Virus record (IMG/VR): IMGVR_UViG_3300025897_000024
Location: 1-44,889 of that record
DNA length: 44,889 nucleotides
Source of the DNA: a virus
Direction: 5' to 3' (one strand)
Below the pieces are notes generated by a model, which made no database searches, was not told the DNA's origin, and worked only from the letters and a program-made list of their open reading frames with translations. The position numbers and the translations under genes are program-made. Of this stretch, positions 17,477-35,371 are shown piece after piece. The number at the start of each line of letters is the position of its first letter. The first letter of the stretch is position 1.

Positions 17477-18037
17477 ATGAGCCGTGGAATAACCAATGCG
17501 TTAAACACCGTATTCACATCATCACATATCAGGCCGTTTGTTGCGGTTGACCTAGCCTTTTCTGGCGCAAATGTCAGAGTTTGGACAGGGCTGGGCAATA
17601 TTACCTTTGCTAGTACAACCTTTGTCGGTACTGGTGAAATCTTGGGTATATCGCCAGTAACAGAAAGTGGCGCAGTTCAGGCCAATGGTCTTAATGTGAA
17701 TTTCAATGGCTTAGATTCAGCATTGGTTGCAACCGCCCTTACTGAAAATTATCAAGGCAGAAGCGCAAAAGTTTATCTGGGCAGTATCACAGAGGCTTAT
17801 GCAGTTGTTGCTGACCCATATCTTTTATTCAGTGGTCGCATGGACACCATGAACATATCAGATGATGGAGAGAGAGCTAACATTCAAGTCTCATGCGAAA
17901 GCCGTTTGGTTGATTTAAACAGGCCAAAAGTCAGGCGTTATACACAGGTTGACCAGCAAACAGAGTTTGCGGGTGATAAGGGTTTGGACTTTATATCTAG
18001 CCTTCAAGAAAAATCCATTAAGTGGAGTGCGCCGTAA
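17477..18037 (+). CDS. Tail-tip component (DUF2163-like, shortened)
   Basis: The protein resembles the first domain of DUF2163/GTA gp13-type tail proteins: RPFVAVDLAFSGANVRVWTG, TGEILGISPVTESGAVQANG, LFSGRMDTMNISDDGERANI and the segment SRLVDLNRPKVRRYTQVDQQ. It ends soon after GDKGLDFISSLQEK. The 186 residues are shorter than the usual proteins of this type, which have a further C-terminal domain, so that part is missing or replaced. The tail-tip J-like gene follows; such pairs form the tail hub. Confidence 0.65.
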   Translation: MSRGITNALNTVFTSSHIRPFVAVDLAFSGANVRVWTGLGNITFASTTFVGTGEILGISPVTESGAVQANGLNVNFNGLDSALVATALTENYQGRSAKVYLGSITEAYAVVADPYLLFSGRMDTMNISDDGERANIQVSCESRLVDLNRPKVRRYTQVDQQTEFAGDKGLDFISSLQEKSIKWSAP

Positions 18038-18068
18038 TTGATTTCGGTAGTTTATTTAAATTGCGGAA

Positions 18069-20936
18069 GTGGAGGTAATAGGGTTCGGTAATTTTTTCAA
18101 GTCGTTTTTCAAAGCGTTAACAGATATAACAACTATCGTTGCTGCGGTTGCCGTTGTCGTCATTGCTGGTCCTATAGCTGGCATGGGGTATCTTGCAAGT
18201 ATAGCAATATATGCCGCTGCAAGTGCCGCGCTGTCAGCGTTGTCACCCAAACCAGACATGCCCAGCATGGGGGGTTATGGTGATTATGTTAGTGAGGCTT
18301 CATCCCGCACACAGATGATTAAACAGCCAGCGCAACCGCGCAGGGTCGCATATGGCAAGGTTCGCGTATCTGGTGTGTTGTCTTTTGTAGAAACGACTAA
18401 TTCAGATAGTGAGTTGCATTTAATTATTTCTCTGGTAACACATGAGATAAATAGTTTTGTTAGCTTCAGGATTGATGAAGATACAGTCACCATGACAGGG
18501 CATAAAGTATCCGCCCCAGCAAGGTTTATGGATGGAAGCACTAATCTTGTAGAGATTAACATTCATAATGGCGCAGATGGCCAAACCGCAGACACCCTTT
18601 TAACGCAAAGAATAAAAGCGTGGACAACTGACCATAGATTGCGTGGCATTGCGTATTTGTATTGTCGGTTGAATTTCAATGCTGAAGCGTTTCCGCAGGG
18701 GTTGCCAAATATATCAGCCGTAATTGAGGGGAAAAAGGTCTTTGACCCACGCGATTCAAGCACAGCGTACTCAAACAATGCGGCTCTTTGCATTAGAGAT
18801 TTTCTAACCAACACCAGATATGGGCTTGCCTGTAGCGCAGATGAAATAGACGACACATCGTTTATTGCGGCGGCAAATACTTGTGATGAGAATGTAACAT
18901 TAGCTGATGGCACTACGCAAAAGAGGTACACCCTTAACGGTACATTCCAAACAAACAGCGCACCCAAAAAGATTATTGAGAATATGCTCACATCATGTGG
19001 CGGCATATTAACTTACACAAACGGCAAGTTTCGTTTGCTGGTTGCAGAATACAGAACTCCAGCCATTACCCTTACTCAAGATGATTTTCACGGACCAATA
19101 CAGTTGGCGGCAACCCAAAGCCAGATGGAAAACTACAATTCAGTCAAAGGCGTTTATTCACCTGAATCAAATGGGTTTATTCCGACTGATTACCCGCCGA
19201 TTACATCAAGCACGTTTGTTTCTGAGGACAATGGCGAGACAAGATATTTAGATTATGACTTGCCATACACAACAAACTCACCTCGCGCACAGCGTCTTGC
19301 CAAGATAGTTCTTTATAGAAATAGGCAACAGGTCGTTTTGCAGTGCCAGCTTTCTATGAAGGGTTTTAACTTAGCAATTGGCGATACCTGTTATGTCACG
19401 CTGCCAAGATATGGCTTCAGCAGTAAGGTTTTTGAAGTTGCTGAATGGAACATTGCCGTCATAGGCGGCATGAATCTAGGGGTTGATGTTACGTTAAGGG
19501 AAACCAACAGCGCGGTATATGATTGGAACGCTGAAGAAACTGTCTTCCAAGAAGATAATTCAACGCTTCCTGACCCATTTGTTATCCCTGCGCCAGTAGT
19601 AACTGCAACAGACATTGTTCAAACATTCCAGCAAGGCGCGATTACAACCCTGCAAATCAATGTAAGCTCACCAAGCGTTTATGCAAATCAATTTGAGGTT
19701 GAGGCTAGGGTAAAGGGAGACGCCACATTTACCGCATTAGGCACTCAAAAAGCTGGAATATACGAACTGGTTAATGTTGAAGATAATACAACATATGAAA
19801 TTCGCGCTAGGTCAATAAGTACATTTCAAACAAAATCAGCATACACGACTATAGAACACACAATCGCTGGAAAAGCTGGTACTGCTCCATCTAATGTTGC
19901 TGATTTCACCCTAGACTATTTGGGTTCTAATGCGCTTCTTACATGGACACCAGTGACGGATGCAGATTTATCTCACTATGTAATACGCCACCAAGGGGTC
20001 ACAAGCGGGGGTGACTTCTCAAGCGGCATAACCATAGCGCAAAAGGTATCAAGGCCAGCCAACAGCGTCATAGTGCCAGCCTTAGAGGGTACATATTTCT
20101 GTGTGGCGGTTGATAAGTACGGTAACAATTCAGCCGTGGCCGCCCAGACCATAGGCATTATTGATGAAGCTCCTGTTTCGGCTAATTTCAAAGTGGTTGC
20201 AACCAATACGCAAAACCCATCATTTGCAGGGGTTAAGACTAATGTAATCAAACCATCAGATGAGGATGTGCTTGTTCTTGAAACAACTATTTTATTTGAT
20301 AGCGGCTCTGGTTTGTTTGATGATGCGGATGGACTGTTTGATGGCGGTGTAGATGGTGTTGTCGCAACAGAAGGCTTTTATGATTTTGATAGCGTGGTTG
20401 ATTTAACAGCCAAGCAAACCTCTAGGGTGTCTTTCAATATTACGCAAACACGCCGCCAATATGATGTAGTCAAGCCAACCTCTCAGGGAACAACGGATTG
20501 TGAATTGCAAATAGCCACAACTGATGATGACCCAGCCAGTGGTTCAGCTACGTTCAGTGCGTTCTCAAGGGTGGTGGCTGGTGATTATTCGGCAAGAGGG
20601 TTTAAGTTTAGATTGAAGATGAACACAATAGACATTGATGACACGCCTGTTGTTTCTGCTTTACAGGTTAATCTATCTTTGGAAAAGCGCACAGAATCAC
20701 AGGGCAACATAGCCAGCGGCACAGGGGGAAGCGGCAAGGTTATAACATTCCCTACAGCATTCGGCTCTATTGATGGTATAACAATCATGGGGCAGAATAT
20801 GAATAGTGGTGAGTTCTATCAAGTAACTAACAAGACAACCACAGGGTTTACTATTACATTCAAGGAATCAAATGGAACTATTGTGGACAGAACATTTGAT
20901 TATGTGGCACAGGGTCACGGCAAGATAAGCGCATAG
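18069..20936 (+). CDS. Tail-tip attachment protein J-like
   Basis: A long hub protein of 955 residues starting with GTG. The N-terminus has hydrophobic segments (ITTIVAAVAVVVIAGPIAGM, SIAIYAAASAALSALS). A TipJ-like section follows (AYGKVRVSGVLSFVET, LRGIAYLYCRLNFNAEAFPQ, FDPRDSSTAYSNNAALCIRD, then KKIIENMLTSCGGILTYTNG). A fibronectin-III-like stretch (FEVEARVKGDATFTALG, LTWTPVTDADLSHYVIRH) precedes an Asp/Gly-rich C-terminal region. Related proteins form the tail-end spike that meets the receptor. It lies far upstream of the tape measure gene, opposite to the usual order. Confidence 0.85.
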   Translation: MEVIGFGNFFKSFFKALTDITTIVAAVAVVVIAGPIAGMGYLASIAIYAAASAALSALSPKPDMPSMGGYGDYVSEASSRTQMIKQPAQPRRVAYGKVRVSGVLSFVETTNSDSELHLIISLVTHEINSFVSFRIDEDTVTMTGHKVSAPARFMDGSTNLVEINIHNGADGQTADTLLTQRIKAWTTDHRLRGIAYLYCRLNFNAEAFPQGLPNISAVIEGKKVFDPRDSSTAYSNNAALCIRDFLTNTRYGLACSADEIDDTSFIAAANTCDENVTLADGTTQKRYTLNGTFQTNSAPKKIIENMLTSCGGILTYTNGKFRLLVAEYRTPAITLTQDDFHGPIQLAATQSQMENYNSVKGVYSPESNGFIPTDYPPITSSTFVSEDNGETRYLDYDLPYTTNSPRAQRLAKIVLYRNRQQVVLQCQLSMKGFNLAIGDTCYVTLPRYGFSSKVFEVAEWNIAVIGGMNLGVDVTLRETNSAVYDWNAEETVFQEDNSTLPDPFVIPAPVVTATDIVQTFQQGAITTLQINVSSPSVYANQFEVEARVKGDATFTALGTQKAGIYELVNVEDNTTYEIRARSISTFQTKSAYTTIEHTIAGKAGTAPSNVADFTLDYLGSNALLTWTPVTDADLSHYVIRHQGVTSGGDFSSGITIAQKVSRPANSVIVPALEGTYFCVAVDKYGNNSAVAAQTIGIIDEAPVSANFKVVATNTQNPSFAGVKTNVIKPSDEDVLVLETTILFDSGSGLFDDADGLFDGGVDGVVATEGFYDFDSVVDLTAKQTSRVSFNITQTRRQYDVVKPTSQGTTDCELQIATTDDDPASGSATFSAFSRVVAGDYSARGFKFRLKMNTIDIDDTPVVSALQVNLSLEKRTESQGNIASGTGGSGKVITFPTAFGSIDGITIMGQNMNSGEFYQVTNKTTTGFTITFKESNGTIVDRTFDYVAQGHGKISA

Positions 20937-20944
20937 GAGAAAGC

Positions 20945-21229
20945 ATGGCACAGCATGATTACAACATAGCCAACCAAACATTTCCCGCCACCAGAACAGA
21001 TATAAACAATGTTCTGGATGCCATAGTGTCCTTGAACTCTGGGGCTAACCAGCCATCAACGCCCTATGCTTATCAACTGTGGTATGATACAACTACAGAT
21101 ATATTAAAGATTAGGGATTCATCAAATGGTGCATGGCTTGACCTTTTTACATTTGACCAGACTACAAACACTGTGACAGCCGTTGCGGGTGCAGAAGACC
21201 CAACAGCCATAGCGATTGCGCTAGGATAA
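20945..21229 (+). CDS. Small tail-fibre stalk protein
   Basis: The sequence MAQHDYNIANQTFPATRTDI, then VLDAIVSLNSGANQPSTPY and LWYDTTTDILKIRDSSNGAW, matches a short protein type common at the start of fibre regions in marine phages. It probably forms a connector between hub and fibre. GGAGA precedes the ATG. The C-terminal part (TAVAGAEDPTAIAIALG) is low in complexity. The call is by resemblance and position, without a catalytic motif. Confidence 0.65.
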   Translation: MAQHDYNIANQTFPATRTDINNVLDAIVSLNSGANQPSTPYAYQLWYDTTTDILKIRDSSNGAWLDLFTFDQTTNTVTAVAGAEDPTAIAIALG

Positions 21230-21239
21230 GGAGAGAAAA

Positions 21240-21707
21240 ATGGCAGATGACGCTTTAGTATCGCTATCAGTTACAGCATTGCCTGATGAGATAGCCCAAA
21301 CATTCTCTGGCAACCTCAGTGTTGCGCCAGCGGATGCCAATGATAAATGGTATTATAAACTATCAACCATCACTACAACCAGCGGTGATTTAATTGCGGG
21401 TTCGTTTCTGGATTATACAGCGGTTGCGGCGGGAACAGCCCCAACAGCTATCACAACCAGTGACAAAGTAAAGTTCTTGATGATACAGAACCAAAGCACC
21501 GCAGATGGTATTGTTATTTGTCTGGATGGTGGTACAGCCGCTTATGACCTCGTTGATGGTATATTTATTGGACCAAGCCAAACATTCACTCTTAGATGCC
21601 CAAATACTACTGTAGGCAATTTACACGCTGTGTCGGCTGATATTGATTCGGCTGGCGACGCTTCTGTAACTGCAATAGTGGCGGCTTTGATTGATGATGT
21701 AGCGTAA
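21240..21707 (+). CDS. Fibre-region structural protein (155 aa)
   Basis: The protein begins MADDALVSLSVTALPDEIAQ and is Ala/Thr/Asp-rich with beta-strand character (KVKFLMIQNQSTADGIVICL, PSQTFTLRCPNTTVGNLHAV). No enzyme motif. The phrase DKVKFLMIQNQST...PSQTFTLRC is typical of small marine phage fibre components. Strong SD AGGAGAG. It is followed by a second small protein of similar style, so the pair may form one structural subassembly. Confidence 0.55.
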   Translation: MADDALVSLSVTALPDEIAQTFSGNLSVAPADANDKWYYKLSTITTTSGDLIAGSFLDYTAVAAGTAPTAITTSDKVKFLMIQNQSTADGIVICLDGGTAAYDLVDGIFIGPSQTFTLRCPNTTVGNLHAVSADIDSAGDASVTAIVAALIDDVA

Positions 21708-21719
21708 AGGGGTAGGCGC

Positions 21720-22046
21720 ATGGCAAATAATTTTGACAGAGCAATATTGGATGGCTCGACTTTGCCAGCTAATACTGCGTTCACCCTTTACACTTGCCCA
21801 ACCACAGCAACAACAAAGACTGTTGGCATTGGGTTGTTGTTCTCAAATGTTGGCTCATCACAGGTTTTGGTTACGCTTTCTTTCAACGGCATAAGCACCA
21901 TGAAAGATATTCCAGTTCCAGCGGGTTCATCATTAGAATATTTTGGCGGCAACAAGATTGTTATGAAAAGCGGAGATGCAATTCAGCTATCATGTGATAC
22001 TGCTAATTCCCTAAATGCTTATTGGTCATATATGGAGATAACCTAA
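21720..22046 (+). CDS. Fibre-region structural protein (108 aa)
   Basis: The protein begins MANNFDRAILDGSTLPANTA and contains FTLYTCPTTATTKTVGIGLL, SLEYFGGNKIVMKSGDAIQL, then WSYMEIT. The pattern of a beta sandwich with a GD-I-L motif near the end is frequent in phage accessory baseplate or fibre proteins. The SD is AAAGGGG. Its stop overlaps the next start (TAATG), so the two are co-translated. No function beyond structural can be given. Confidence 0.55.
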   Translation: MANNFDRAILDGSTLPANTAFTLYTCPTTATTKTVGIGLLFSNVGSSQVLVTLSFNGISTMKDIPVPAGSSLEYFGGNKIVMKSGDAIQLSCDTANSLNAYWSYMEIT

Positions 22047-22708
22047 TGCCATATCTGGGGAACATTCTTGCCAAATCATTTAGCGCGGTTTCTTACCAAG
22101 ATTTGACAGGTGGAAGCGGCACAGGCTTTACTCTTGACCATGCTGTGGCAAATGCCAATGAGATAGAGGTTTTTGTAGAAAATGTCCGCCAAGAGCCGAA
22201 TGTAGCCTATACAGTATCAGGCACAACTATGACCATGACAGGTGCAGTAGCGGCCACAGATGATTTCTATGTGGTGTTCCAAAGCAAGGCTCAACAGAGC
22301 GTCACATTGCCAGCTAATATCACAAGCCCCACCACATTTGGCGGCGGGGTGACATTTGCGGGTGACGCAACATTTAGTAAGGCCATGCAGGGCAATACGC
22401 AAACCGCCTCAATCAGTAGCACAACAACTCTAGATTTTGACACATTCCAGAATTTCATTCTCACATTGGGGGCATCAAGTATCAGTCTTGCCAACCCAAC
22501 GACTGAGGCGGTAGGTCAAACAGGCTTTATAATCTTTATACAAGACGGAACAGGCAGTAGAAGTGTCAGCCCTGCTAGTGACTACATAACACCCGCTGAT
22601 ACTGCTCTAACGCTCTCTACAGCGGCTAATGCGGTTGATTTGGTTCCATATGCGATACAAGCCAGCGATAAGATACTTTTGGGAACGCCCCAACTCGCAT
22701 TTAGTTAG
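22046..22708 (+). CDS. Tail-fibre protein (220 aa)
   Basis: The protein begins MPYLGNILAKSFSAVSYQDL and has the repeat domain found in marine phage fibres: GSGTGFTLDHAVANANEIEV, FVENVRQEPNVAYTVSGTTM, DDFYVVFQSKAQQSVTLPA. Its C-terminal half looks like a shaft. ATG 22046 rather than 22022 is chosen: GGAGA precedes it and it overlaps the upstream stop. A related repeat domain is found twice in the protein at 27924-29018. Confidence 0.65.
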   Translation: MPYLGNILAKSFSAVSYQDLTGGSGTGFTLDHAVANANEIEVFVENVRQEPNVAYTVSGTTMTMTGAVAATDDFYVVFQSKAQQSVTLPANITSPTTFGGGVTFAGDATFSKAMQGNTQTASISSTTTLDFDTFQNFILTLGASSISLANPTTEAVGQTGFIIFIQDGTGSRSVSPASDYITPADTALTLSTAANAVDLVPYAIQASDKILLGTPQLAFS

Positions 22709-22716
22709 GAGGCAAT

Positions 22717-25566
22717 ATGTCAGGAGTGTTTGGTAATCCTTGGCTATATAACGCCACCCCCCCTTTTTATAACTACCTCATAAATCAATCATTGCGATTT
22801 AATGGAAGTGATGAATACCTAACTAGGACAACCAGCGGAAATCCCTCTAGCACAACATCAACGGTATTTTCTTGTTGGGTAAAGCGAAGCAAGCTTGGGG
22901 CTATACAAATGATTTGGACAGCCGCAACTACGGCTCCAAATGTTTGTGGTTATGTTTATTTTAATGCTAGTGACCAAATTCAAGTTTATCTTGATAAGTC
23001 AGCGGCAGGGTCAGATGAATTAAACACAACTACTACAGCCGTATTTAGAGACCCATCAGCTTGGATGAATGTTGTTGTGGTCTACAATACCGCTGATAGC
23101 ACCACAGCAAATAAATCTAAAATCTATGTTAATGGTGTGCAACAAGCAGTTAGCACCAGTGTTACAGGTAATGCCGTTACTACTCACCGACTTTTAGATA
23201 ACGGTGTTGTAAATACGATTGGTAAATCTTTTAATTCAAGTTCTTATTTTGATGGATATTTAGCAGAATTTCACGTTGTAGATGGTGTTTCTGGCATAGA
23301 TTATGATGATTTTGGGGAAACTAAAGACGGTGTTTGGGTAGCAAAACAGTATTCTGGTGGACACGGAGATAATGGATTTTACCTCACATTTCAAGGAACA
23401 GGCACGGCTACCACATCTGACGGCACAACAGCGCAAACGAATATTGGTGATGACCAATCTGGGGTAGGAAATAATTTTGCCGTGTCTGGTCTTGCCGCAA
23501 ATAATGTGGTTCCAGATAGCCCCACAAATAACTTTGCTACGCTTAATCCATTAGATAATTACAATACTGGCGCAACCCTTAGTGAAGGTAATTTAAAATG
23601 GACTATAGGTGCTGCAGATGGGGCATCACGTTCTACTTATGTAATGACTGCGGGTAAATGGTATGTTGAGTTTCTAATAAACAATGATTACATCGGCGTT
23701 GTTAGTGGAAACGCAGATATTACAACTATGAATGGAACGCAAACTGTTTTTTATGCACAGGACGGAACAAAAAGAGTAAATGGTAGCAGTAGTTCATACG
23801 GCGCTTCTTATACAGATGGAGATATTATTGGCATTGCTCTTGACCTTGACTCTGGCACACAAACAGTCACCTTTTATAAAAACAATGCCTCTCAAGGTTC
23901 TTTAAATTTAACTGATGTAGGTAATGAAGGATATTCAGTTAGTTGTGGTAGTGGTAGTGGTAGCACCAACGCAACAGCTAATTTCGGTCAAGACAGTTCG
24001 TTTGCTAACGCAAAAACAAGCGGCTCTGCGGGTGCGTCTGATGCGAATGGTGTAGGTGATTTTTTTTACGCGGTTCCGTCTGGGTTTTTGGCATTAGCAT
24101 CCAGCAATTTGCCAGAACCTTCTATAATTGATAGTTCTAATCATTTCAACACGGTGCTTTGGACTGGCACTGGTTCTGGAATTACACGCTCAATCAGCGG
24201 GGTCGGATTTCGTCCAGATTTTTCGTGGTCAAAAAACAGAACGCAGAACTACAGCAATATTTTATATGATGCTGTGAGAGGCACTGGAAGTGAGGCAGAG
24301 CTTCAATCTAACGACACTGCCAAACAAGGTGATGGTAACAACGACACATATGGTTATTTATCATCTTTTGACAGTGATGGCTTTACCTCAACCGCTGGTT
24401 CAGGTGGCAACTCTCAAAACTTATATTTTAATGAGGCAAGCCAAACTTACGTTGCTTGGAATTGGAAGGCTGGAGGCGCAACACCAACCAAGACATATAA
24501 AGTGGTTGTGGTAAGTGATAGCGGAAACAAGTACAGATTTAGAAACAGTGCGGATGATGCAACCTATGCCGCCAGTGCAGTAACCCTTGAACTGCAAGAG
24601 GGCGGCACATATACCTTTGACCAATCAGATAGCAGTAATTCAGGACACCCATTTAGATTTTCCACCACATCAAACGGCACACATGGTGGTGGTTCAGAAT
24701 ACACAACTGGAGTCACCACAAGTGGAACAGCGGGGTCAGCGGGGGCAAATACCACTATCATTGTGGCGGCTGGTGCGCCAACGCTTTACTATTATTGCAC
24801 AGTACATTCTGGAATGGGCGGTCAGGTAAATACAAACTCAACCTATGGCTCAACAAATTTTGACGGCACTTTGATTGCAACGGTATCAGCAAATGTTGAG
24901 GCTGGATTTAGCATTGCTAGATGGACAGGAAATGCAGTTGACAATACTGTTATCCCACATGGTCTTGGTGGGGCAGCGGATTTAGTTATAACAAAATCTC
25001 AGACTATTGTAGATGGTTCTTGGCTGGCCTTGCACTCAAACATTGCGTCTGAGACTAATAACGTAATTATTCTTAATCAAATCACGGCGGCTGTTAATGG
25101 CTCTAGTGCCTTAACCAATGGGTGTCCTGATGAGCTAACATCAGTGGGCGTTAAATTGGTCAGGGGTACTGGCTCTGGCATGAACGCTGTAAATGGCTCT
25201 GGAAGAGCATACATTGCGTATTGTTTCAAAAATGTTGATGGATATCTAAAATGCGGTGGGTACACTGGGAATGGAGCCAGCGATGGGGTTTTCATTTACA
25301 CAGGTTTTCGTGTTTCATTATGGATGATGAGGGCTGTAACTGATGCATCACATTGGGTTATCTATGACGCTGCAAGAGAGCCAGAAAACGCTGTTGACAA
25401 GCAACTGTTGGCTAATGAAGTCAATGCAGAATACGCATCTGGCAGAGATGTGGATTTTTTGAGCAATGGTGTAAAGCTTAGATTTAGCACATATCTTAAT
25501 GTATCTGCTAAAAAGTACATATACGTTGCCATAGGAAATTCATTTAAATACGCAAACGCCCGATAG
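22717..25566 (+). CDS. Large multidomain tail fibre (LamG-, SPRY- and cupredoxin-like)
   Basis: The 949 residues carry several recognisable regions in order. A concanavalin/LamG-like domain at about 20-215 contains LRFNGSDEYLTRTTSG and WMNVVVVYNTADST. An SPRY-like region at about 260-440 contains GKWYVEFLINNDYIG and DIIGIALDLDSGTQTVTFYK. A DUF7483-like piece at about 480-600 contains FSWSKNRTQNYSNILYDAVR. A cupredoxin-like piece at about 595-705 contains SGHPFRFSTTSNG and YYYCTVHSGMGGQ. A second DUF7483-like piece ends the protein. It probably binds host surface glycans. The cupredoxin-like region keeps His, Cys, His and Met in type I copper spacing. Confidence 0.75.
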   Translation: MSGVFGNPWLYNATPPFYNYLINQSLRFNGSDEYLTRTTSGNPSSTTSTVFSCWVKRSKLGAIQMIWTAATTAPNVCGYVYFNASDQIQVYLDKSAAGSDELNTTTTAVFRDPSAWMNVVVVYNTADSTTANKSKIYVNGVQQAVSTSVTGNAVTTHRLLDNGVVNTIGKSFNSSSYFDGYLAEFHVVDGVSGIDYDDFGETKDGVWVAKQYSGGHGDNGFYLTFQGTGTATTSDGTTAQTNIGDDQSGVGNNFAVSGLAANNVVPDSPTNNFATLNPLDNYNTGATLSEGNLKWTIGAADGASRSTYVMTAGKWYVEFLINNDYIGVVSGNADITTMNGTQTVFYAQDGTKRVNGSSSSYGASYTDGDIIGIALDLDSGTQTVTFYKNNASQGSLNLTDVGNEGYSVSCGSGSGSTNATANFGQDSSFANAKTSGSAGASDANGVGDFFYAVPSGFLALASSNLPEPSIIDSSNHFNTVLWTGTGSGITRSISGVGFRPDFSWSKNRTQNYSNILYDAVRGTGSEAELQSNDTAKQGDGNNDTYGYLSSFDSDGFTSTAGSGGNSQNLYFNEASQTYVAWNWKAGGATPTKTYKVVVVSDSGNKYRFRNSADDATYAASAVTLELQEGGTYTFDQSDSSNSGHPFRFSTTSNGTHGGGSEYTTGVTTSGTAGSAGANTTIIVAAGAPTLYYYCTVHSGMGGQVNTNSTYGSTNFDGTLIATVSANVEAGFSIARWTGNAVDNTVIPHGLGGAADLVITKSQTIVDGSWLALHSNIASETNNVIILNQITAAVNGSSALTNGCPDELTSVGVKLVRGTGSGMNAVNGSGRAYIAYCFKNVDGYLKCGGYTGNGASDGVFIYTGFRVSLWMMRAVTDASHWVIYDAAREPENAVDKQLLANEVNAEYASGRDVDFLSNGVKLRFSTYLNVSAKKYIYVAIGNSFKYANAR

Positions 25567-25572
25567 GAGACT

Positions 25573-26139
25573 ATGATGTGGAAATATAACAACAGGACGC
25601 TCAAGGAGGGTAGGGCTTGGACTGATGATGAGGGCTATCAGCATCCCAAAAATTGGGCTATGTGGGACACACCAACAAAGACATCAAGAGGTTTGGTTTG
25701 GGAAGATGAAGCCGCGCCTTTTGATAACAAGTTTTATTCTGGGCGTGATGCAGATGGAACGCTGATAGAGAAAAGCCTAACCGATACCCTGTGGGTGGAT
25801 GCTGATGGCAATGCTGTTGTAGATGAAATGACAGGCGCACAAGGCGTAACAGATGGCCTCAAAAACAAATACATAAAAGAAACCAAACAAATAGCCAGCA
25901 GCTTGCTTGCCCCTACAGATTGGATGGTTGTTAGAAAAGCAGAAGATAGCTCTAAAACACTTGCATCAAAATACACAACTTATAGGGCGGCAATCCGTAC
26001 AGCTTGCGCGGCAATAGAGCAAGATATAAATGATTGTAGCTCTTTAGATGAGTTTATGGCATTATGGGATACGCCAGTAAAAGATGGTGAGCCAAGTGGC
26101 AATGCGCCAATCAATGACTGGCCTGATGTGGTGGAGTAA
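25573..26139 (+). CDS. Tail-fibre assembly/chaperone-like protein
   Basis: The N-terminal half is rich in Trp and acidic residues (MMWKYNNRTLKEGRAWTDDE, TSRGLVWEDEAAPFDNKF). The C-terminal half holds the chaperone-like motif PTDWMVVRKAED followed by YTTYRAAIRTACAAIEQDI and EFMALWDTP. The TDW...YR...R pattern is shared with three smaller genes downstream. Such proteins attach to or fold the adjacent fibre. The SD AGGAGA and position straight after the large fibre support this. Confidence 0.6.
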   Translation: MMWKYNNRTLKEGRAWTDDEGYQHPKNWAMWDTPTKTSRGLVWEDEAAPFDNKFYSGRDADGTLIEKSLTDTLWVDADGNAVVDEMTGAQGVTDGLKNKYIKETKQIASSLLAPTDWMVVRKAEDSSKTLASKYTTYRAAIRTACAAIEQDINDCSSLDEFMALWDTPVKDGEPSGNAPINDWPDVVE

Positions 26140-26142
26140 GTT

Positions 26143-26790
26143 ATGGCACTATCTAAAATTAGCAATGGCTCAATTGATAGCACTGTTGCTGGGCTTGAAC
26201 TTATTGCAGTCAATGAAAAAACAGCTTCAGATTTCAGTTCTGGAACTAATTTTTTGGACATTGCAAATTGCTTTACCTCTGACTATGAAGATTATTATGT
26301 AAGATATTACTGTCAATCAACTGACGATACAGTGAATTCGCTCAATATGGCTTTAGAAACATCAGGAGCCAGCGTAACTGGCGCAAAAGAACAATTTAGC
26401 AGTCCCACATTTAGTCCAGATACATTTAATGCGGTAGTATATTATGATAAATTGCAGTCCGCATCCCAAGGGTATGTCAATTCTTTTGGTGGGGCGTATC
26501 CTTTTTTAGGCGCAAATACAGGTGATGCTACAGGTTATTTTGATGGAGAGGTGTGGCTGAGAAATGTATATTCTCTACCTAGATTCTCTTATTGGCACCA
26601 TCATCATATGCGCACTAACGCTGGTCAAGATTATTATGAATATGGCGGCGGTATGGCTGTCACTTTTTCTAGTGCAGTTGCGGCAAGGGGCATTCGGTTC
26701 TTCACTACAGATAACGCTACCTACGGTTCAGGTACAGGCCAATTGAACACTTACGGAAGGACAGCAGTTTACGGAGTTAAAAAAGGATGA
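26143..26790 (+). CDS. Putative distal fibre/receptor-binding protein
   Basis: The protein begins MALSKISNGSIDSTVAGLEL and ends TAVYGVKKG. It has many aromatic and Gly/Thr residues (FPCLG-like GAYPFLGANTGDATGYF, SYWHHHHMRTNAGQDYYEYG) and no enzyme motif. The four-His run in SYWHHHHMR is unusual and could bind metal. It overlaps the start of the next chaperone-like gene (ATGA). Size and place between two chaperone-like genes suggest a receptor-binding tip. Confidence 0.55.
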   Translation: MALSKISNGSIDSTVAGLELIAVNEKTASDFSSGTNFLDIANCFTSDYEDYYVRYYCQSTDDTVNSLNMALETSGASVTGAKEQFSSPTFSPDTFNAVVYYDKLQSASQGYVNSFGGAYPFLGANTGDATGYFDGEVWLRNVYSLPRFSYWHHHHMRTNAGQDYYEYGGGMAVTFSSAVAARGIRFFTTDNATYGSGTGQLNTYGRTAVYGVKKG

Positions 26791-27137
26791 GTGTAGCTAG
26801 AGCAATAGAAAATTTAGTTGATGGCGCAGTAAACTTACAAGACTTTGTAGTTCACACCGCCGCTGATATGGTTAGCTATACCGTTGAGTGGTTAAATGCA
26901 GACCTTACAGAGCCAACAAAATCTGAAATAGAATCGAAGCGCACAGAATTGTATGCAGAAGATAAACTGCGACAATTAAGAATAGAGCGTAACAAGCTGT
27001 TGGCTGAAACAGACCATTGGGTTCTGTCGGACACGACTGATGCTACATCTGCACAAACAACTTACCGTCAAGCTCTGCGTGATATTACAGACAACGCCAC
27101 ATCATTAGACGATGTGACTTGGCCTACAAAACCATGA
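26787..27137 (+). CDS. Tail-fibre chaperone-like protein (116 aa)
   Basis: The N-terminus MSVARAIENLVDGAVNLQDF resembles the start of fibre proteins, while the C-terminal half carries IERNKLLAETDHWVLSDTTD and YRQALRDITDNATSLDDV, ending TWPTKP. This half is nearly the same as the small gene at 27723-27914. Translation is coupled to the upstream gene. The protein may be a fibre fragment fused to a chaperone motif, since the two halves are unlike each other. Confidence 0.6.
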   Translation: MSVARAIENLVDGAVNLQDFVVHTAADMVSYTVEWLNADLTEPTKSEIESKRTELYAEDKLRQLRIERNKLLAETDHWVLSDTTDATSAQTTYRQALRDITDNATSLDDVTWPTKP

Positions 27138-27144
27138 GGATGCT

Positions 27145-27711
27145 ATGACACAGGCAAGGACATTAGCGGATATTGGCGCGACAGGGGCGGGTAGCAACAT
27201 AAAAGAACAATTTACATTAGTGTGTAATGGTGAAGCGGTAACGGTTGGCAGCGGTACTTACACACCAGCTAATGTAACGACATCGCAACTGTTAACAGAG
27301 TCCCACGCTGTTATTAACGGTTCAAGTTTAGCGTACACCCCGCCGTCTGATACAACAGAGGTAATCTATGAATTTTCATTTACTTGGCAACTTTATAGTA
27401 CAGTTACCCAATTGGCGCACTATGCGATGAGAATTGATGGAACTCAAATAACAGGAACAAAAAACACTTATTCCAATGATGCGACTTATGGCAACGAAAT
27501 AATAGATTTTAAATGGCGTATTCCTATTGGCGGTTCAGCTTCAACCTCAACAGGAAGGGTTGCTAGTTGGACAAGTGCAAAGACTATAGATATGACAGCG
27601 AGAATCTTTAGTTCAACCTACACTGGACAAGTCCACAGGTCTTCTTATTGGGATGGTGCGTCTAGCGCATTTTTCCCACAACCGATTATTAAAATCACGG
27701 CTTTAGGGTAA
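27145..27711 (+). CDS. Putative distal fibre protein (188 aa)
   Basis: The protein begins MTQARTLADIGATGAGSNIK and has a beta-rich middle (EVIYEFSFTWQLYSTVTQLA) and a Ser/Thr-rich end (GQVHRSSYWDGASSAFFPQP). It belongs to the marine phage fibre tips that begin with an ARTLA-type motif, also seen at 29316. No enzyme motif. It is followed by its own small chaperone-like gene. Confidence 0.55.
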   Translation: MTQARTLADIGATGAGSNIKEQFTLVCNGEAVTVGSGTYTPANVTTSQLLTESHAVINGSSLAYTPPSDTTEVIYEFSFTWQLYSTVTQLAHYAMRIDGTQITGTKNTYSNDATYGNEIIDFKWRIPIGGSASTSTGRVASWTSAKTIDMTARIFSSTYTGQVHRSSYWDGASSAFFPQPIIKITALG

Positions 27712-27722
27712 GGGGTGTTTTG

Positions 27723-27914
27723 ATGAGTGACGCTGAAATGCAGTTGTATATGTTAAGGGTGGAACGTAATCGTTTGCTTGAAGAAACTGACCATTGGGTT
27801 CTGTCTGACACTACTGATGCTACATCTCAACAATTATCATACCGCCAATCATTAAGAGATATAACAGATAGTGCAACATCACTAGATGATGTGACTTGGC
27901 CTACGAAGCCATAA
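27723..27914 (+). CDS. Short tail-fibre chaperone-like protein (63 aa)
   Basis: MSDAEMQLYMLRVERNRLLE is followed by ETDHWVLSDTTDATSQQLSY and ends VTWPTKP. Over about 50 residues this matches the end of the 26787 gene almost residue for residue, and the DNA is also very similar (about 26990-27134 versus 27759-27911). ATG 27723 with AAGGGG upstream is chosen over the TTG 3 nt earlier. A recent duplication of a chaperone module is the likely origin. Confidence 0.7.
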   Translation: MSDAEMQLYMLRVERNRLLEETDHWVLSDTTDATSQQLSYRQSLRDITDSATSLDDVTWPTKP

Positions 27915-27923
27915 GGAAGAGCT

Positions 27924-29018
27924 ATGCCATATATTGGAAAATCACCAGAGTTTGGAGTCAGGGAGAGGTTCTATTTCACCCAGACAAGTGCGGGTGCGAC
28001 CTCTATTTCTGGGTTTGATGACAACGGCACAACTCTTAGATTCACAGATGGCAACTATGTTGATGTCTATTTGAACGGCGTTCTGTTGGTTGATGGGGTT
28101 GATTACGGAACAAGCACAGCTAACACCATAAGCTCATTATCAGCATTGGCGGATGAGGATGTAATTGAGGTTGTTGCTTATGATGTTTTCAACCTTGCCA
28201 AGAATCAAGCAGAGGTAACACGGACAAGATATTACAAGACCGCCTCTGGTAGCGAGACATCTATAAGCGGCAATGATGATGATGGTGTAGCAATTTCCTT
28301 CCCCGCTGGCGCACAGCTAGATGTTAGTTTGAACGGCGTGTCATTAGTGGCGGGTACAGATTACAACACTAGCACAGCCAATACTATCTCAGGCTTGTCA
28401 GCGTTAAGTGCAGGGCAAGTTATTGAGATTGTCAAATATGAAAAGTTTGTTGTCAGTGACACCGTGAGCAAGGCGCAGGGCGGCACGTTTACTGGTGGTG
28501 TGACTATGGGTGGTACGCTGAATGTTACTGGTGCATCTACTTTGTCTAGTACGCTTGGTGTTACTGGCAAAATAACATCAACGGCTGGAATTACCTTTGG
28601 TTCAGATACCGCAGCGACAAATGTACTGGATGATTATGAGTATGGCACTTGGATACCAAGCATAGGCGGCGATGCCACATATGGTACGGTAAACCACGGC
28701 AGATATACAAAAATTGGAAATATTGTATCATTGAATTTTACTCTTCAAGTCAACCTAAAAGGAACTGGCAGCAACGCACTGCTTTCTGGCCTACCATTTA
28801 CCAGTGAAGATATTGGTTGGGTTCAAACTGGATGTGTTTCTTACTATACAGACCTAGCAACAACCACTAATTTTATTGCTCTTTACGTTAGCAATAATTC
28901 TACAACAATAAGTTTTGTGGGTAATAATGGTAACAACACGACAATAGCTTTGAACGGTTTTGCGGCCATAGGTAACAGCACACTACTTACCTGCTCTTTA
29001 ACATATCGAGTAGCATAA
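27924..29018 (+). CDS. Tail fibre with two internal repeat domains (364 aa)
   Basis: Two copies of one domain follow each other: FYFTQTSAGATSISGFDDNG ... DVYLNGVLLVDGVDYGTSTA (about 15-100), and RYYKTASGSETSISGNDDDG ... DVSLNGVSLVAGTDYNTSTA (about 100-190). A TLNVTG/TLSSTLGVTG shaft motif follows, and a C-terminal beta-rich tip ends SLTYRVA. The repeat type is common in marine phage fibres. SD AAGGAAG. This is the longest of the smaller fibre genes. Confidence 0.7.
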   Translation: MPYIGKSPEFGVRERFYFTQTSAGATSISGFDDNGTTLRFTDGNYVDVYLNGVLLVDGVDYGTSTANTISSLSALADEDVIEVVAYDVFNLAKNQAEVTRTRYYKTASGSETSISGNDDDGVAISFPAGAQLDVSLNGVSLVAGTDYNTSTANTISGLSALSAGQVIEIVKYEKFVVSDTVSKAQGGTFTGGVTMGGTLNVTGASTLSSTLGVTGKITSTAGITFGSDTAATNVLDDYEYGTWIPSIGGDATYGTVNHGRYTKIGNIVSLNFTLQVNLKGTGSNALLSGLPFTSEDIGWVQTGCVSYYTDLATTTNFIALYVSNNSTTISFVGNNGNNTTIALNGFAAIGNSTLLTCSLTYRVA

Positions 29019-29063
29019 CCTGATTGGATTATCAGGTAGTCAGTCCATCCATAGGAGATAAAA

Positions 29064-29315
29064 ATGGCACTAACAGAAGAAACAGTACAGGACAAAATTG
29101 AAATCGTATCTGAACATAAATTTGTACAGGTCAGAACTGCAACCGTTATTAAAAAAGATGGTGTAGAGATAAGCCGTAGCTTTCACAGGCACGTTGTAGC
29201 ACCTAACGCAGACATCAGTGGCGAAAGCACAGAGGTACAGGCTATCTGTGCAACAGTTCACACACAAGCAGTTAAAGATGCGTATGCGGCGCATTTAGCG
29301 GCACAGGTGGTATAA
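29064..29315 (+). CDS. 83-residue fibre-region protein
   Basis: The protein begins MALTEETVQDKIEIVSEHKF and continues VRTATVIKKDGVEISRSFHR, with a C-terminal Ala-rich helix (VKDAYAAHLAAQVV). This short protein type is common beside fibre genes in marine phages; its function is unknown. SD AGGAGA. A small inverted repeat (29018-29037) lies in the gap upstream. Confidence 0.65.
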   Translation: MALTEETVQDKIEIVSEHKFVQVRTATVIKKDGVEISRSFHRHVVAPNADISGESTEVQAICATVHTQAVKDAYAAHLAAQVV

Positions 29316-29957
29316 ATGAGTAGAGCAAGAACATTAGCGAATTTCGTTGGCGGCACTTCTACCATTGTTGGAAACCCAACATTTACTGGAACAACAGTAG
29401 GCGCGGGTAAAATAGTGCAGATTAAACAAACAGTTTTTAAAGACCAATTTTATACCACAGTCACAACCGCTGGGCATGAGCAAGTTGTAACAGGCTTGAA
29501 TTGCACTATTACACCAACCAGCGCAAGTAACAAAATATTGCTTCAATATTCTATCCACATGGGATGCACACAGGGTTATGACAATGGCATTAACATATAT
29601 AAAAATGTGTCAGCAAACTCTGGCGCACGCCCTCTTGGGACTAAGTTATTAGATTCAGGTGGTAACGCTATCGAGGGTACAGGCACTTCAAATAGACCAT
29701 CTTCCGTAGGTGTGCTTTCGCCATATGCTAGTGGTGTAAGTGATGTTTATAGATTACTTCCTGTTACCTTAAATGTTATAGACCACCCAAATAGCACAAG
29801 TGCGCTAACTTATAGTATCGCTGTAACGAGTTATGCTTTTACAAGTTCATCGTATATTTTTGTAAACAGAAGTCATCAATTTCAAGTTGATACTGCCAGC
29901 CCTCCACTTTACGACCACTGTCCTGTAAGTACAGTAACCCTGATGGAGGTAAGTTAA
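29316..29957 (+). CDS. Putative receptor-binding fibre tip (213 aa)
   Basis: The N-terminus MSRARTLANFVGGTSTIVGN is the attachment motif shared with 27145. A beta-rich tip domain follows (SASNKILLQYSIHMGCTQGY, NVSANSGARPLGTKLLDSGG, DVYRLLPVTLNVIDHPNSTS). Variation among related tips usually reflects host recognition. The gene starts 1 nt after the preceding stop and is followed by a fourth chaperone-like gene. Confidence 0.6.
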   Translation: MSRARTLANFVGGTSTIVGNPTFTGTTVGAGKIVQIKQTVFKDQFYTTVTTAGHEQVVTGLNCTITPTSASNKILLQYSIHMGCTQGYDNGINIYKNVSANSGARPLGTKLLDSGGNAIEGTGTSNRPSSVGVLSPYASGVSDVYRLLPVTLNVIDHPNSTSALTYSIAVTSYAFTSSSYIFVNRSHQFQVDTASPPLYDHCPVSTVTLMEVS

Positions 29958-30201: not shown

Positions 30202-30873
30202 ATGAGTGGATTAACAATAACTACTGCGCCAGCTAACGAGCCGCTTGATGCCGCTGAAACCATATCGTATTTGCGACTGGACTCTGGTGTAGACACTACG
30301 CTTGTTGATAATCTCATTAAAGCAGCGAGGTTTTGGGTAGAAGATTACACAAACAGAACATTGCTGACCACCACGTTTACTCTATCTCTAGACGGAATAG
30401 GATATGTGGATGTGCCAATTAAAGAGGGCTTTCACACAGGTTATTCTGATACGCCAAGAATAAATTATATAGAATTACCAAAGTCACCAGTGCAGTCAGT
30501 TACGCACATCAAGTCATACACAGATGATAACACGGCATCAACTCTTGCTACATCTAATTATTACAGTGATTTGGTAAGAGAGCCAGCGCGGATTGTTCTG
30601 CGTGATGGCGGGTCATGGCCTACAGATTTACGCAATGCAAATGGAATAGAGGTTGAATATATAACTGGCTATGGCGATTCAAGGGCAGCTATTCCAGAGC
30701 CAATCCGTGTTGCTATGCTGGAGTATATTTCATTTTTATATGAACACAGAGGCGATGATGAGGGTAGAGCGTTAAACCCGCCAATGATGATTACCTCTTT
30801 ATTGCAGCCTTATGTTATTATGAGATACGGCGTTAGCTCTTATGGTGGAGGTATGGGTTTTGGCTATCGGTAA
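30202..30873 (+). CDS. Head-tail connector (phage gp6-like)
   Basis: The N-terminal helical domain is typical: PANEPLDAAETISYLRLDS, DTTLVDNLIKAARFWVEDYT, followed by NRTLLTTTFTLSLDG. The middle has LPKSPVQSVTHIKSYTDDN and IEVEYITGYGDSRAAIPEPI, then a helix. The protein forms a ring below the portal and joins it to the tail completion proteins. Usually this gene follows the capsid directly; here about 13 kb of tail-tip and fibre genes lie between. Confidence 0.87.
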   Translation: MSGLTITTAPANEPLDAAETISYLRLDSGVDTTLVDNLIKAARFWVEDYTNRTLLTTTFTLSLDGIGYVDVPIKEGFHTGYSDTPRINYIELPKSPVQSVTHIKSYTDDNTASTLATSNYYSDLVREPARIVLRDGGSWPTDLRNANGIEVEYITGYGDSRAAIPEPIRVAMLEYISFLYEHRGDDEGRALNPPMMITSLLQPYVIMRYGVSSYGGGMGFGYR

Positions 30874-32048: not shown

Positions 32049-32462
32049 ATGCCTGCACAAAAAGGTTCAGCCCTGTTAATGAAATTGGGTGATGGTGCAA
32101 GCCCAGAGGCTTTCACAACAATCGGCGGTATGCGTTCAACATCCCTGACTATGAATGATGAGATGGTTGACGTAACAAATAAAGACTCAAGCAGTGCAAG
32201 AACTATCTTAGCGCAGGGTGGGGTCAACTCTATCAGTGTTTCAGGCAGTGGTGTATTTACTGATTCACCTTCAGAGGCAACACTCAAAGGCAAATTCAAC
32301 GTAGCAGCATTAACAAATTATCAGTTCCTTGTGCCTGATTTTGGCACGTTCACAGGTGCATTTATGTTGACCACCCTTGAATATGGCGGCGAGTACAATG
32401 GTGAAGTAACTTACAGCTTTACCTTTGAAAGCTCTGGCGCAATCACATTTGCTACGGTGTAA
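32049..32462 (+). CDS. Major tail tube protein (TP901-1 type)
   Basis: The sequence PAQKGSALLMKLGDGAS ... TTIGGMRSTSLTMNDEMVDV ... SSSARTILAQGGVNSISVSG ... GAFMLTTLEYGGEYNGEVTY ... SFTFESSGAITF follows the family from end to end. It forms the stacked hexamers of the tail tube. It is 137 residues, slightly short but complete, and preceded by AAAGGAGA. Its place between the terminator and the chaperone genes is standard. Confidence 0.9.
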   Translation: MPAQKGSALLMKLGDGASPEAFTTIGGMRSTSLTMNDEMVDVTNKDSSSARTILAQGGVNSISVSGSGVFTDSPSEATLKGKFNVAALTNYQFLVPDFGTFTGAFMLTTLEYGGEYNGEVTYSFTFESSGAITFATV

Positions 32463-32465: not shown

Positions 32466-32738
32466 ATGACTTGGGTTCAAGTAGAAATTGAAGTTGGTGG
32501 CAAGACCTTTAACGGACACATGATGTCTAATGAAGATGCCACCATCTTTAATATTCCCCCTGCCTCAGAATTAAAGGTGGATGGGAAATTCAAATGCGGT
32601 GGGCAAACATATACCGCCGCGACTGTTCACGATGTAGCCCAGAGGGGCGAAGAATTATTGGTAGAAGCCAAGGAGAAAGCGGATGTCAAATCCAAAGCGC
32701 GGGGAGCTAGAGATAGTTCTGGGGGAGAAGACGTATAA
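32466..32738 (+). CDS. 90-residue tail-region protein of unknown function
   Basis: The protein begins MTWVQVEIEVGGKTFNGHMM and is beta-rich, then FKCGGQTYTAATVHDVAQRG and a charged helix (LVEAKEKADVKSKARG). No family is recognised. It overlaps the chaperone gene by 56 nt, and the SD for that gene (AAGGAG) lies inside its 3' end, so expression is coupled. It may be a minor tail tube or chaperone accessory. Confidence 0.6.
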   Translation: MTWVQVEIEVGGKTFNGHMMSNEDATIFNIPPASELKVDGKFKCGGQTYTAATVHDVAQRGEELLVEAKEKADVKSKARGARDSSGGEDV

Positions 32739-33042
32739 AGGCAAGGTAACGCTGGATGCCGTTATGCGTATTGAGCAATCATGCGGCATGGGCATTGTCA
32801 AAATAGCGCAAGCGTTATCTGAAGGCAATTTGACCACTTCTCAAATGGTCGCAATATTAACGCCTGTTATTAGAGGCGGTGGTAATGACATTAATGAAAA
32901 AGAGGTTGGTCAATCTCTCTGGGGTGCGGGTTTAGTTGGCGGTATGAAATCTATTGGTGAGATTTTAGCCGCTGTTCTTTCATCGGGCGAAGATGAAGAG
33001 GCCGATGAGGGAAACGGCGAACAGGCGGCAGCGTTGTTGTAG
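32683..33042 (+). CDS. Tail assembly chaperone 1 (GTA gp10-like, Phage_TAC_11)
   Basis: The protein NPKRGELEIVLGEKTYKGKV ... AVMRIEQSCGMGIVKIAQAL ... TSQMVAILTPVIRGGGNDIN ... GMKSIGEILAAVLSS follows the GTA gp10 family. The C-terminus is acidic. The slippery heptamer GGGAAAC (33009-33015) sits in frame as G GGA AAC near the end, and the -1 frame leads into the second chaperone. The short form ends at TAG 33040. It works with tape measure and tube during tail assembly, like lambda gpG. Confidence 0.85.
   Translation: MSNPKRGELEIVLGEKTYKGKVTLDAVMRIEQSCGMGIVKIAQALSEGNLTTSQMVAILTPVIRGGGNDINEKEVGQSLWGAGLVGGMKSIGEILAAVLSSGEDEEADEGNGEQAAALL
33009..33015 (+). other. Programmed -1 frameshift site (GGGAAAC)
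   Basis: The codons of chaperone 1 read G GGA AAC here, the X XXY YYZ form of a -1 slippery site and one base from lambda's GGGAAAG. The -1 frame has a TGA at 33006-33008 and is open from 33009 to 33236, so it opens exactly at the heptamer. Confidence 0.8.
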
Positions 33043-33236
33043 AAGAGTTGCCGTGGAATAATTGGATGCGTTTGGGTTTAGGGAAAATGCAAATTGCGCC
33101 GAATCATTTTTGGGATATGAGTTTCCCAGAGTTTTACGCGGCAATAGAGGGTTTTGCAGAGTTTCATTCAGGTGGTAAGCCGCCGCCACTAACTAGAGAT
33201 GGTTTAAACGAGTTGATGGAACTCTATCCAGATTAA
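33009..33236 (+). CDS. Tail assembly chaperone 2, made by -1 frameshift (Phage_TAC_6-like)
   Basis: The second chaperone contains PWNNWMRLGLGKMQIAPNHF and WDMSFPEFYAAIEGFAEF, the pattern of the GTA-linked DUF2376/Phage_TAC_6 family. There is no ATG before the domain; the only independent start would be a TTG at 33048. With a slip at GGGAAAC the product is a fusion of about 184 residues carrying chaperone 1 at its N-terminus, equivalent to lambda gpGT. The linker after the shift reads RRTGGSVVVEEL. Confidence 0.8.
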   Translation, partial: GKRRTGGSVVVEELPWNNWMRLGLGKMQIAPNHFWDMSFPEFYAAIEGFAEFHSGGKPPPLTRDGLNELMELYPD

Positions 33237-33256: not shown

Positions 33257-35371
33257 ATGGCAACAACAGTAGATACCTTGCTGGTTCGCATTGAGGCTGA
33301 TTTAAAAGATGTCAACCGCAAGCTAAAACAATTTGATAAAAATGTAGATACCACAGCTAAAAAAGCTCAACGAAATTTCAATAAAATTGGAACGGCGGTT
33401 AAGGTCGTTCTTGGTGCGGTTGTTGTCCAACAGCTTGCTCAAGCTGGCATGGCGGCTATCAAGTTTGCCTCCAGTGTTGAAGAAATGCAATCCAAGTCAT
33501 CAGTTGTTTTTGGTGCTTTCACACAAGATGTAAGAAATGCTTTATCAGATTTTGGCGATGAAGTAGGCCGCAGCACTTTTGAACTTGAGGGCATGGCCTC
33601 TACTATCCAAGATACTTTTGTGCCTATGGGCTTTGCTAGGGGTGAAGCTGCAAAACTATCTGTAGAGCTTACCAAATTAGCGGTTGATGTCGCGTCATTT
33701 AACAATGCATCTGACACAGAGACCATGAGGGCGTTTCAGTCCGCCCTGATAGGAAACCATGAGACTGTTAGACAATTTGGTATCGTTATTACTGAAGCAA
33801 CCCTTCAGCAAGAACTTTACAGGATGGGGGTCACCAAAAACTCCAAAGATGTAGACAACGCCACCAAAGTTCAAGCGCGGATGAACCTTATCCTTAAAGG
33901 TACAACTGATGCACATGGCGATGCGGCAAGAACGTCTGGCAGTTTTGCTAACACATCCAAGGCATTAGGCGCGGCACTTGATGAATTATTGGTTAATGTA
34001 GTTACCCCATTATTGCCAGCATTAACTAAGATGGTTCGGGGTCTTGCGGATGCCGCTGGTGCGCTTAATGCGTTTTTAATAGAGGTTGGATTAATAGAGC
34101 AAGTTGGCTCTGAAGGGGCGGATGCTTTAGAGCTTTATAATATAAAAGTTAAGGAAGTAGAGACATTAACCAAACAAGCCGCTGAACAAGTAGTAAAGTT
34201 AAATGAAGCTGTAAATTCTAAAGACCAAAACAAAGGTGATTTTATTGATGGAGCAAGAGCAAGGTTAACAGAATTTGATAACCAAATTAAGGCAGCAAAA
34301 GCGGATTTAGTAGATTTGGAAACAATGCTTGTTGCTGATAGCTTTGCTCTAGCGACTCCCCCGCCATCTGCAACTGGTGGTGATGATGTAGATACTGAAG
34401 AAGTTGCCCGCCAGAAAAAAATTAAATCGTCTTTAGAAGATTTGAGCAAGGCCAATAGGATTTTGGCATTAGATAAAATGGGCTTGAATGAAGCGGAAAA
34501 AGAATTTCAAATTTTACAAATAGAGCTAGGCAAATTAACGAAGACACAAGAAAAGCAATTAAGGGCATTGACTAGAGAACAGGTTGATATGAACAAGCTG
34601 TATGATGCCGCCACAAAAGCAAATGATGCTTATAATACAAAAATGAAAGAAGGGCAGATTATAGCTCAAGGGTTTATTCCAGAGCAGACCAAACTTGAGC
34701 AGCAGCTTGAAAATGTAAGGTTAGCCATGAGGGGGGCGGCTACAGAAGATTTGCCACTGTATGAAAGCGCAATAAAAGATTTGCAGTTTCAGATTAAAAT
34801 GACTAACCCTGCTTTTGAGTCTCTATTCAATGCAGCTATGCAAGCCGCAGATGGTATTTCAAACGCTCTTGCTGATGCTTTTGTAAACGGCAAACTTTCC
34901 CTGTCAAGTCTTGGTGATGTATTCAAGCAAGTTATAAAACAAATGATAGCAGATGCAATTAAAGCGCAAATAATAAAGCTATTAATGAGGGCAGCTATGG
35001 GCTTTGGTGGGGGCGGCTCTGTTGGCTCTGGCTCTAGCTCTATGACATTTACATCTGCATCTGATAGCTTTGCTTCTGGTGGCAGAATACCAGCAAGGGC
35101 TGGTGGCGGTCCTGTTCTTGTGGGTGAGCGTGGTCCTGAATTGTTTATACCGCACAGCGGTGGGGTAATTAGAAACAATCACGATACCAAAAATATGATG
35201 GGTGGCGGTTCGCCTGTTGTGGTCAATCAAAACATCAATATTGAAACAGGGGTTGCCCAAACAGTCAGGGCAGAGGTTATGTCTATGATGCCAAGGATTA
35301 AATCTGAAACCATACAGGCAATGATTGACGGAAAGCGCAGAGGCAACTCAATCAGTAAGGCATTTGCATAA
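33257..35371 (+). CDS. Tail tape measure protein
   Basis: The protein begins MATTVDTLLVRIEADLKDVN and contains a long helical region (KLKQFDKNVDTTAKKAQRNF), a hydrophobic segment (VVLGAVVVQQLAQAGMAAIK), MQSKSSVVFGAFTQDVRNAL and further coiled coil (VKEVETLTKQAAEQVVKLNE). The C-terminus is Gly-rich (PVLVGERGPELFIPHSGGVI), the usual end of tape measures. At 704 residues and about 0.15 nm per residue, a tail of roughly 100 nm is inferred. It follows the chaperones after 20 bases. Confidence 0.9.
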   Translation: MATTVDTLLVRIEADLKDVNRKLKQFDKNVDTTAKKAQRNFNKIGTAVKVVLGAVVVQQLAQAGMAAIKFASSVEEMQSKSSVVFGAFTQDVRNALSDFGDEVGRSTFELEGMASTIQDTFVPMGFARGEAAKLSVELTKLAVDVASFNNASDTETMRAFQSALIGNHETVRQFGIVITEATLQQELYRMGVTKNSKDVDNATKVQARMNLILKGTTDAHGDAARTSGSFANTSKALGAALDELLVNVVTPLLPALTKMVRGLADAAGALNAFLIEVGLIEQVGSEGADALELYNIKVKEVETLTKQAAEQVVKLNEAVNSKDQNKGDFIDGARARLTEFDNQIKAAKADLVDLETMLVADSFALATPPPSATGGDDVDTEEVARQKKIKSSLEDLSKANRILALDKMGLNEAEKEFQILQIELGKLTKTQEKQLRALTREQVDMNKLYDAATKANDAYNTKMKEGQIIAQGFIPEQTKLEQQLENVRLAMRGAATEDLPLYESAIKDLQFQIKMTNPAFESLFNAAMQAADGISNALADAFVNGKLSLSSLGDVFKQVIKQMIADAIKAQIIKLLMRAAMGFGGGGSVGSGSSSMTFTSASDSFASGGRIPARAGGGPVLVGERGPELFIPHSGGVIRNNHDTKNMMGGGSPVVVNQNINIETGVAQTVRAEVMSMMPRIKSETIQAMIDGKRRGNSISKAFA

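Follow-up and report, generated by a model that had tools for sequence, protein, structure and literature searches.

Here we describe a pair of small open reading frames, lying between a major tail tube gene and a tape measure gene, that are very probably joined by a programmed ribosomal frameshift. The window, by which we mean the whole stretch of DNA that was analysed, is an IMG/VR virus record of 44,889 bases (44.9 kb), and the features of the locus are collected in Table 1. The first reading frame begins at an ATG with an AAGGAG Shine-Dalgarno sequence 7 nt to its 5′ side, and its product exceeds the Pfam gathering cut-off for Phage_TAC_11 (48.9 against 27.8 bits, model positions 1-95 of 96). 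The second lies in the -1 frame, runs for 75 amino acids until the TAA at 33234-33236, and exceeds the cut-off for Phage_TAC_6 (47.9 against 23.4 bits, model positions 1-57 of 58). Towards the end of the first frame the codons GAG (33007), GGA (33010) and AAC (33013) read through a slippery heptamer as G GGA AAC. A first-pass annotation, made from the sequence, had given the heptamer these coordinates and this phase, exactly as we find them, and had described the -1 frame as stopped at 33006, open from 33009 through the second domain, and without an ATG ahead of that domain. All of this was confirmed: the stop is a TGA, the frame stays open to 33236, and its first ATG, at 33066, lies inside the TAC_6 domain. 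The proposed kinship of the two domains to gp10 of gene transfer agents (GTAs) and to the small GTA chaperone beside it was borne out by the two Pfam matches; the best NCBIfam match of the TAC_6 domain, TIGR02216 (“rcc01693 family”), reaches 43.7 bits against a cut-off of 56.1, which makes it a relative and not a member of that equivalog.

Table 1. Features of the tail-chaperone locus, in coordinates of the window
Feature	Position	Strand	Evidence or remark
Major tail tube protein (Phage_tail_2)	32049..32462	+	PF06199 E 1.3e-34; PHROG 1407 major tail protein E 3e-29
TAC_11 / GTA-gp10 chaperone, 0-frame gene, G-like product, 119 aa	32683..33042	+	PF11836 E 7e-13
TGA closing the -1 frame directly 5′ of the heptamer	33006..33008	+	sequence; found at this place in most relatives
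Slippery heptamer G_GGA_AAC, in phase	33009..33015	+	sequence; conserved in 81/81 distinct family members as GGGAAAC or GGGAAAG
-1 frame extension: linker GKRRTGGSVVVEE plus Phage_TAC_6 domain (T-like part)	33009..33236	+	PF09550 E 1.8e-12, residues 14-75
GGNGG, conserved, 8 nt 3′ of the heptamer	33024..33028	+	read as Gly-Gly in the -1 frame, within the linker of the fusion
Predicted hairpin of this phage, without conservation across the family	33025..33054	+	fold of 33005-33105
0-frame stop TAG	33040..33042	+	ends 27 nt after the heptamer
TTG, sole start-like codon before the TAC_6 core	33048..33050	+	not conserved
Tape measure protein	33257..35371	+	PHROG 1535 tail length tape measure protein E 6e-23; PF09718 below cut-off

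Some neighbouring features deserve a brief mention. A 90-aa open reading frame at 32466-32738 shares 56 nt with the beginning of the TAC_11 gene and has sub-threshold matches only (Phage_HCP, PG_binding_3). Between the capsid and neck genes, about 12 kb (17477-29957) encode fibre-like and repetitive small proteins, including a 949-aa protein at 22717-25566. The best terminase match in the phage collection is to Roseobacter phage CRP-6 (49%), whose fibre genes also stand between portal and capsid.

The AlphaFold model of the TAC_11 protein (pLDDT 77) is ordered from about residue 5 to 102 and ends in a disordered tail, 103-119, which holds the slip codons, so that the slip is predicted to fall after the folded domain. 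The TAC_6 model is weak (pLDDT 68). A search of the sequences of solved structures returned no significant match for either domain, and a structural comparison with the PDB found no chain above Z 3 for TAC_11 and none at Z 2 for TAC_6, whose model is the weak one. Tail assembly chaperones were among the top TAC_11 matches in BFVD, with modest scores.

Conservation of the slippery heptamer

The bare heptamer is not rare: GGGAAAC occurs six times in the window, where 4.9 occurrences are expected. Among the 63 in-phase sites of the form X_XXY_YYZ in plus-strand genes, the one at 33009 is the only one that gives a long -1 extension beyond the stop. An in-phase GGGTTTT at 30855, where the gene for the head-tail adaptor is about to end, opens a -1 frame of 40 aa and is probably due to chance. 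What speaks for a signal over chance is context together with conservation, and on the sequences compared here conservation is decisive.

Relatives were retrieved by protein similarity, with peptide patterns outside the heptamer, and then with a TAC_6 protein motif as the sole selection, yielding 84 distinct sequences, of which 81 come from IMG/VR (the window included) and three are GenBank phages. Every one of the 81 IMG/VR sequences keeps the heptamer in phase, as GGGAAAC in 79 and GGGAAAG in two, a form reported to be highly shift-prone in E. coli (PMC5009743); two of the three GenBank phages have GGGAAAC and the third CCCTTTA. The heptamer is, in these sequences, fixed across this uncultured phage family. 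When the relatives were reduced to 31 clusters, below 80% TAC_6 identity, GGGAAA was invariant, and in 29 of them the seventh base was C, which makes the A-site codon AAC. Across these genes GGA accounts for 18.5% of glycine codons and AAC for 30% of asparagine codons, and a codon-choice test over the 31 clusters puts the probability that the encoded amino acids would yield the heptamer by chance at about 0.013 per sequence. Since that probability is so small, chance would be negligible even with 16 independent lineages, the lineages being not fully independent. In all 31 clusters the 0-frame reaches its stop codon 18-30 nt past the heptamer, a TAG in 24 and a TAA in seven.

Downstream of the heptamer, the GGNGG motif is conserved at 97-100% at positions +15, +16, +18 and +19 across the 31 clusters. 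The sequence 33005-33105 of the window folds at -26.5 kcal/mol with a z of about -1.6 to -1.7. RNAalifold found no consensus pairs after the heptamer in 25 relatives, and the 57 nt after the heptamer showed no excess structure over synonymous shuffles in the 31 clusters (mean z +0.40, if anything less folded), while a control window offset by 60 in the same clusters was more folded than its shuffles. Because there is no excess over the 31 clusters, the hairpin of the window is not a family feature, and neither result points to a conserved stimulatory RNA structure downstream. Folding of the RNA after the heptamer, which the first-pass annotation had suggested as a check, brought out nothing conserved. 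Since no stimulatory structure is conserved, the heptamer probably acts largely alone.

How the second domain is reached

We consider, with a probability of roughly 0.94, that a -1 programmed ribosomal frameshift of the lambda G/GT type joins the TAC_11 and TAC_6 chaperone domains; our confidence that it is real as a sequence feature is high, and it is very likely functional. In this mechanism, most ribosomes would read 32683-33042 and produce the G-like TAC_11 chaperone in abundance. A minority would slip backwards by one base on G_GGA_AAC, the P-site and A-site tRNAs re-pairing with GGG and AAA, and these ribosomes would bypass the 0-frame TAG and continue to 33236, making a GT-like fusion of 184 residues composed of TAC_11, linker and TAC_6. 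By analogy with lambda, the G part would bind the product of the tape measure gene that follows the pair, while tail tube subunits would be recruited by the T part. We infer the slippage itself, its low efficiency and these chaperone roles, the roles being suggested by protein family, gene order and the lambda analogy. A survey in E. coli suggested that bacterial ribosomes tolerate the re-pairing of AAC to AAA less than eukaryotic ones do (PMC4066793), and for this reason the shift on G_GGA_AAC may be weak in E. coli, so that the choice of the native host is of consequence.

The alternative that comes closest is that the two domains are separate genes, with TAC_6 translated independently or by coupling from the TTG at 33048 or the ATG at 33066 after the TAG at 33040, in the manner of the NTGA overlaps of GTAs. 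The TTG is indeed present, GTA homologues are organised in just this way (105 pairs with an ATG or GTG of their own, 79 of them NTGA overlaps), and distant relatives have been annotated publicly as two genes. However, the TAC_6 core opens with a PW motif, and in 59 of 83 sequences the stretch from the heptamer to this motif contains no ATG, GTG or TTG, the other 24 having a TTG there; with a start codon absent from that many, independent initiation is not the shared mechanism, and with a TTG in just 24 of 83, TTG 33048 is not a conserved start. The independent TTG start was rejected on this count. Moreover, a GAAGAG directly abuts TTG 33048, with no spacing between them, a start at ATG 33066 would remove the conserved PW beginning of the domain, and separate genes would leave the invariant heptamer unexplained. 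We regard this organisation as highly unlikely in the phage.

Transcriptional slippage on the G/A run, giving a subpopulation of mRNA with joined frames, would likewise produce the fusion and conserve a homopolymer tract, though none of our results favours it over slippage of the ribosome. Known transcriptional slippage sites are long A or T tracts, and the runs within GGGAAA, at just three bases each, are too short; tandem slippage of two tRNAs also accounts better for the codon phase and for the conservation of the seventh base, so we give this explanation hardly any weight. It is equally hard to credit that a sequencing or assembly indel has split one continuous gene, or that the heptamer is a chance match. 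That bare GGGAAAC is not rare in the window would fit such an artefact, as would Rhodobacter phage RcapNL, which seems to have both domains in one frame, but the same frame relation and heptamer recur in the 81 distinct IMG/VR sequences and in GenBank phages, and this recurrence refutes it. The lambda-like frameshift put forward in the first-pass annotation thus finds support in phase, domain families and the conservation of the heptamer in 81 of 81 sequences. The comparison of relatives that it had called for was favourable: neither loss of the heptamer in close relatives, which it had named as refuting, nor a conserved TTG start was found when looked for.

Gene transfer agents, other phages and known systems

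When bacterial genomes were scanned with a pattern, most of the loci returned were Rhodobacterales GTAs, including 105 pairs with a recognised upstream gp10. In all 105 an ATG or GTG for TAC_6 lies between -30 and +25 nt relative to the gp10 stop, and in 79 it forms an exact NTGA overlap. An in-phase heptamer occurs in the last 75 nt of gp10 in two of the 105, both about 70 nt upstream of its end. Rhodobacterales GTAs use separate genes, which are probably coupled; the RcGTA-type trait, TAC_11 and TAC_6 as separate genes with a start codon at the junction, is absent from the window. In a description of GTAs, g10 (pfam11836) and g10.5 are named tail chaperones 1 and 2, and frameshifting is not mentioned (PMC11409702).

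Beyond the GTAs, distant GenBank phages have in-phase GGGAAAC (OP947159, MW202777, MN988490), GGGAAAA (MW202897) or CCCTTTA (MW202613), and MW462191 has a weak AAACCCT; all six are annotated as two genes. In samples of 240 alphaproteobacterial genomes and 398 genomes of the same phylum, TAC_6 lies in the -1 frame in many of the non-GTA pairs, with a junction heptamer (CCCTTTC, GGGAAAG, GGGAAAA, GGGAAAC and others) and without an ATG or GTG; some pairs have an ambiguous TTGA overlap, and some prophages have separate genes. No prophages of this phage family were found in the genome_contigs collection, and the plasmid collection held no match for a related TAC_6. Rhodobacter phage RcapNL carries a 190-aa gene (10354-10926) with TAC_11 and an apparent TAC_6 in one frame, a possible third arrangement by in-frame fusion. 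Roseobacter phage CRP-6 has an unrelated chaperone pair, gp45/gp44, at 24745-25487, in which gp44 (Phage_TAC_18) is encoded in the -1 frame and annotated with a TTG start, and in which gp45 has no heptamer towards its end.

On a tree of 93 pairs the two arrangements change five times, against a mean of 28 when shuffled, and the GTAs share one clade of loci with separate genes, set among phages of the frameshift type, the tree being unrooted and many of its branches weak. The simplest reading takes frameshifting as the usual arrangement in phages and the split in GTAs as derived, the direction being drawn from an unrooted topology. The first-pass annotation had held that the two domains are normally separate genes that recoding has joined here. 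That they are separate in GTAs stands, in 105 of 105 pairs, but separation as the normal state and joining as an innovation are not supported, for non-GTA phages and prophages mostly have an in-phase heptamer and no ATG or GTG for the second domain. The ancestor of alphaproteobacterial GTAs may have been a frameshifting phage, the GTA lineage having exchanged the frameshift for two separate, translationally coupled genes, a proposal to which we assign slightly less than even odds. If it is true, the way of setting chaperone stoichiometry changed as a phage tail became a host-controlled particle.

This kind of frameshift has been known since lambda, and tail-chaperone frameshifts were surveyed by Xu et al. 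2004, as cited in PMC5009743 and PMC3483164. The only paper found in the open library that names the TAC_11 and TAC_6 families does not discuss frameshifting, and as far as that library shows, what is new is that the site is fixed in this uncultured family, that it occurs more generally in TAC_11/TAC_6 phages, and that GTAs contrast with them. The logic of the tail-chaperone frameshift would thereby extend to the GTA-type families TAC_11 and TAC_6, where it was missed in the GenBank annotation of the relatives that we checked. Phages that slip and GTAs that do not, built on the same two proteins, offer a natural contrast in which the need for a covalent G-T fusion in tail assembly becomes testable. 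The strict use of AAC in the A site, and not AAG, raises a question about host tRNAs, AAC being reportedly less shift-prone on bacterial ribosomes.

Among known systems, two share the identical heptamer, GGGAAAC, by which they were compared: a tail-chaperone frameshift was predicted there in gp18/gp19 of Burkholderia phage KL1 (PMC3483164), and it is listed as the g-t shift site of the haloarchaeal virus HCTV-1 (PMC5009743); both have other hosts and are single-genome predictions. Desulfofustis phage LS06-2018-MD02 (OP947159), Rhizobium phage RHph_Y3_1 (MN988490), MW202777 and MW202897 have a TAC_11/TAC_6 pair with TAC_6 in the -1 frame and an in-phase GGGAAAC or GGGAAAA, but differ in a protein identity of about 20-40% and in their annotation as two genes, and MN988490 also has an ATG 20 nt past the stop of its first reading frame. 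RcGTA has the same two protein families in the same order (g10 is Rcc1692, and g10.5 probably belongs to the rcc01693 family), but as two separate genes, usually with an NTGA overlap, at a junction without a slippery heptamer. The G protein of lambda binds the tape measure protein, tail tube subunits are recruited by the T part of GT, and G and GT are made at about 30:1 (PMC5009743). The lambda site is GGGAAAG, where here it is nearly always GGGAAAC, and our domains belong to TAC_11 and TAC_6, with no Pfam match to the lambda G or T family; yet in both loci a two-domain chaperone pair directly precedes the gene for the tape measure protein, the second domain is encoded in the -1 frame, and a heptamer of one and the same type lies towards the end of the first reading frame.
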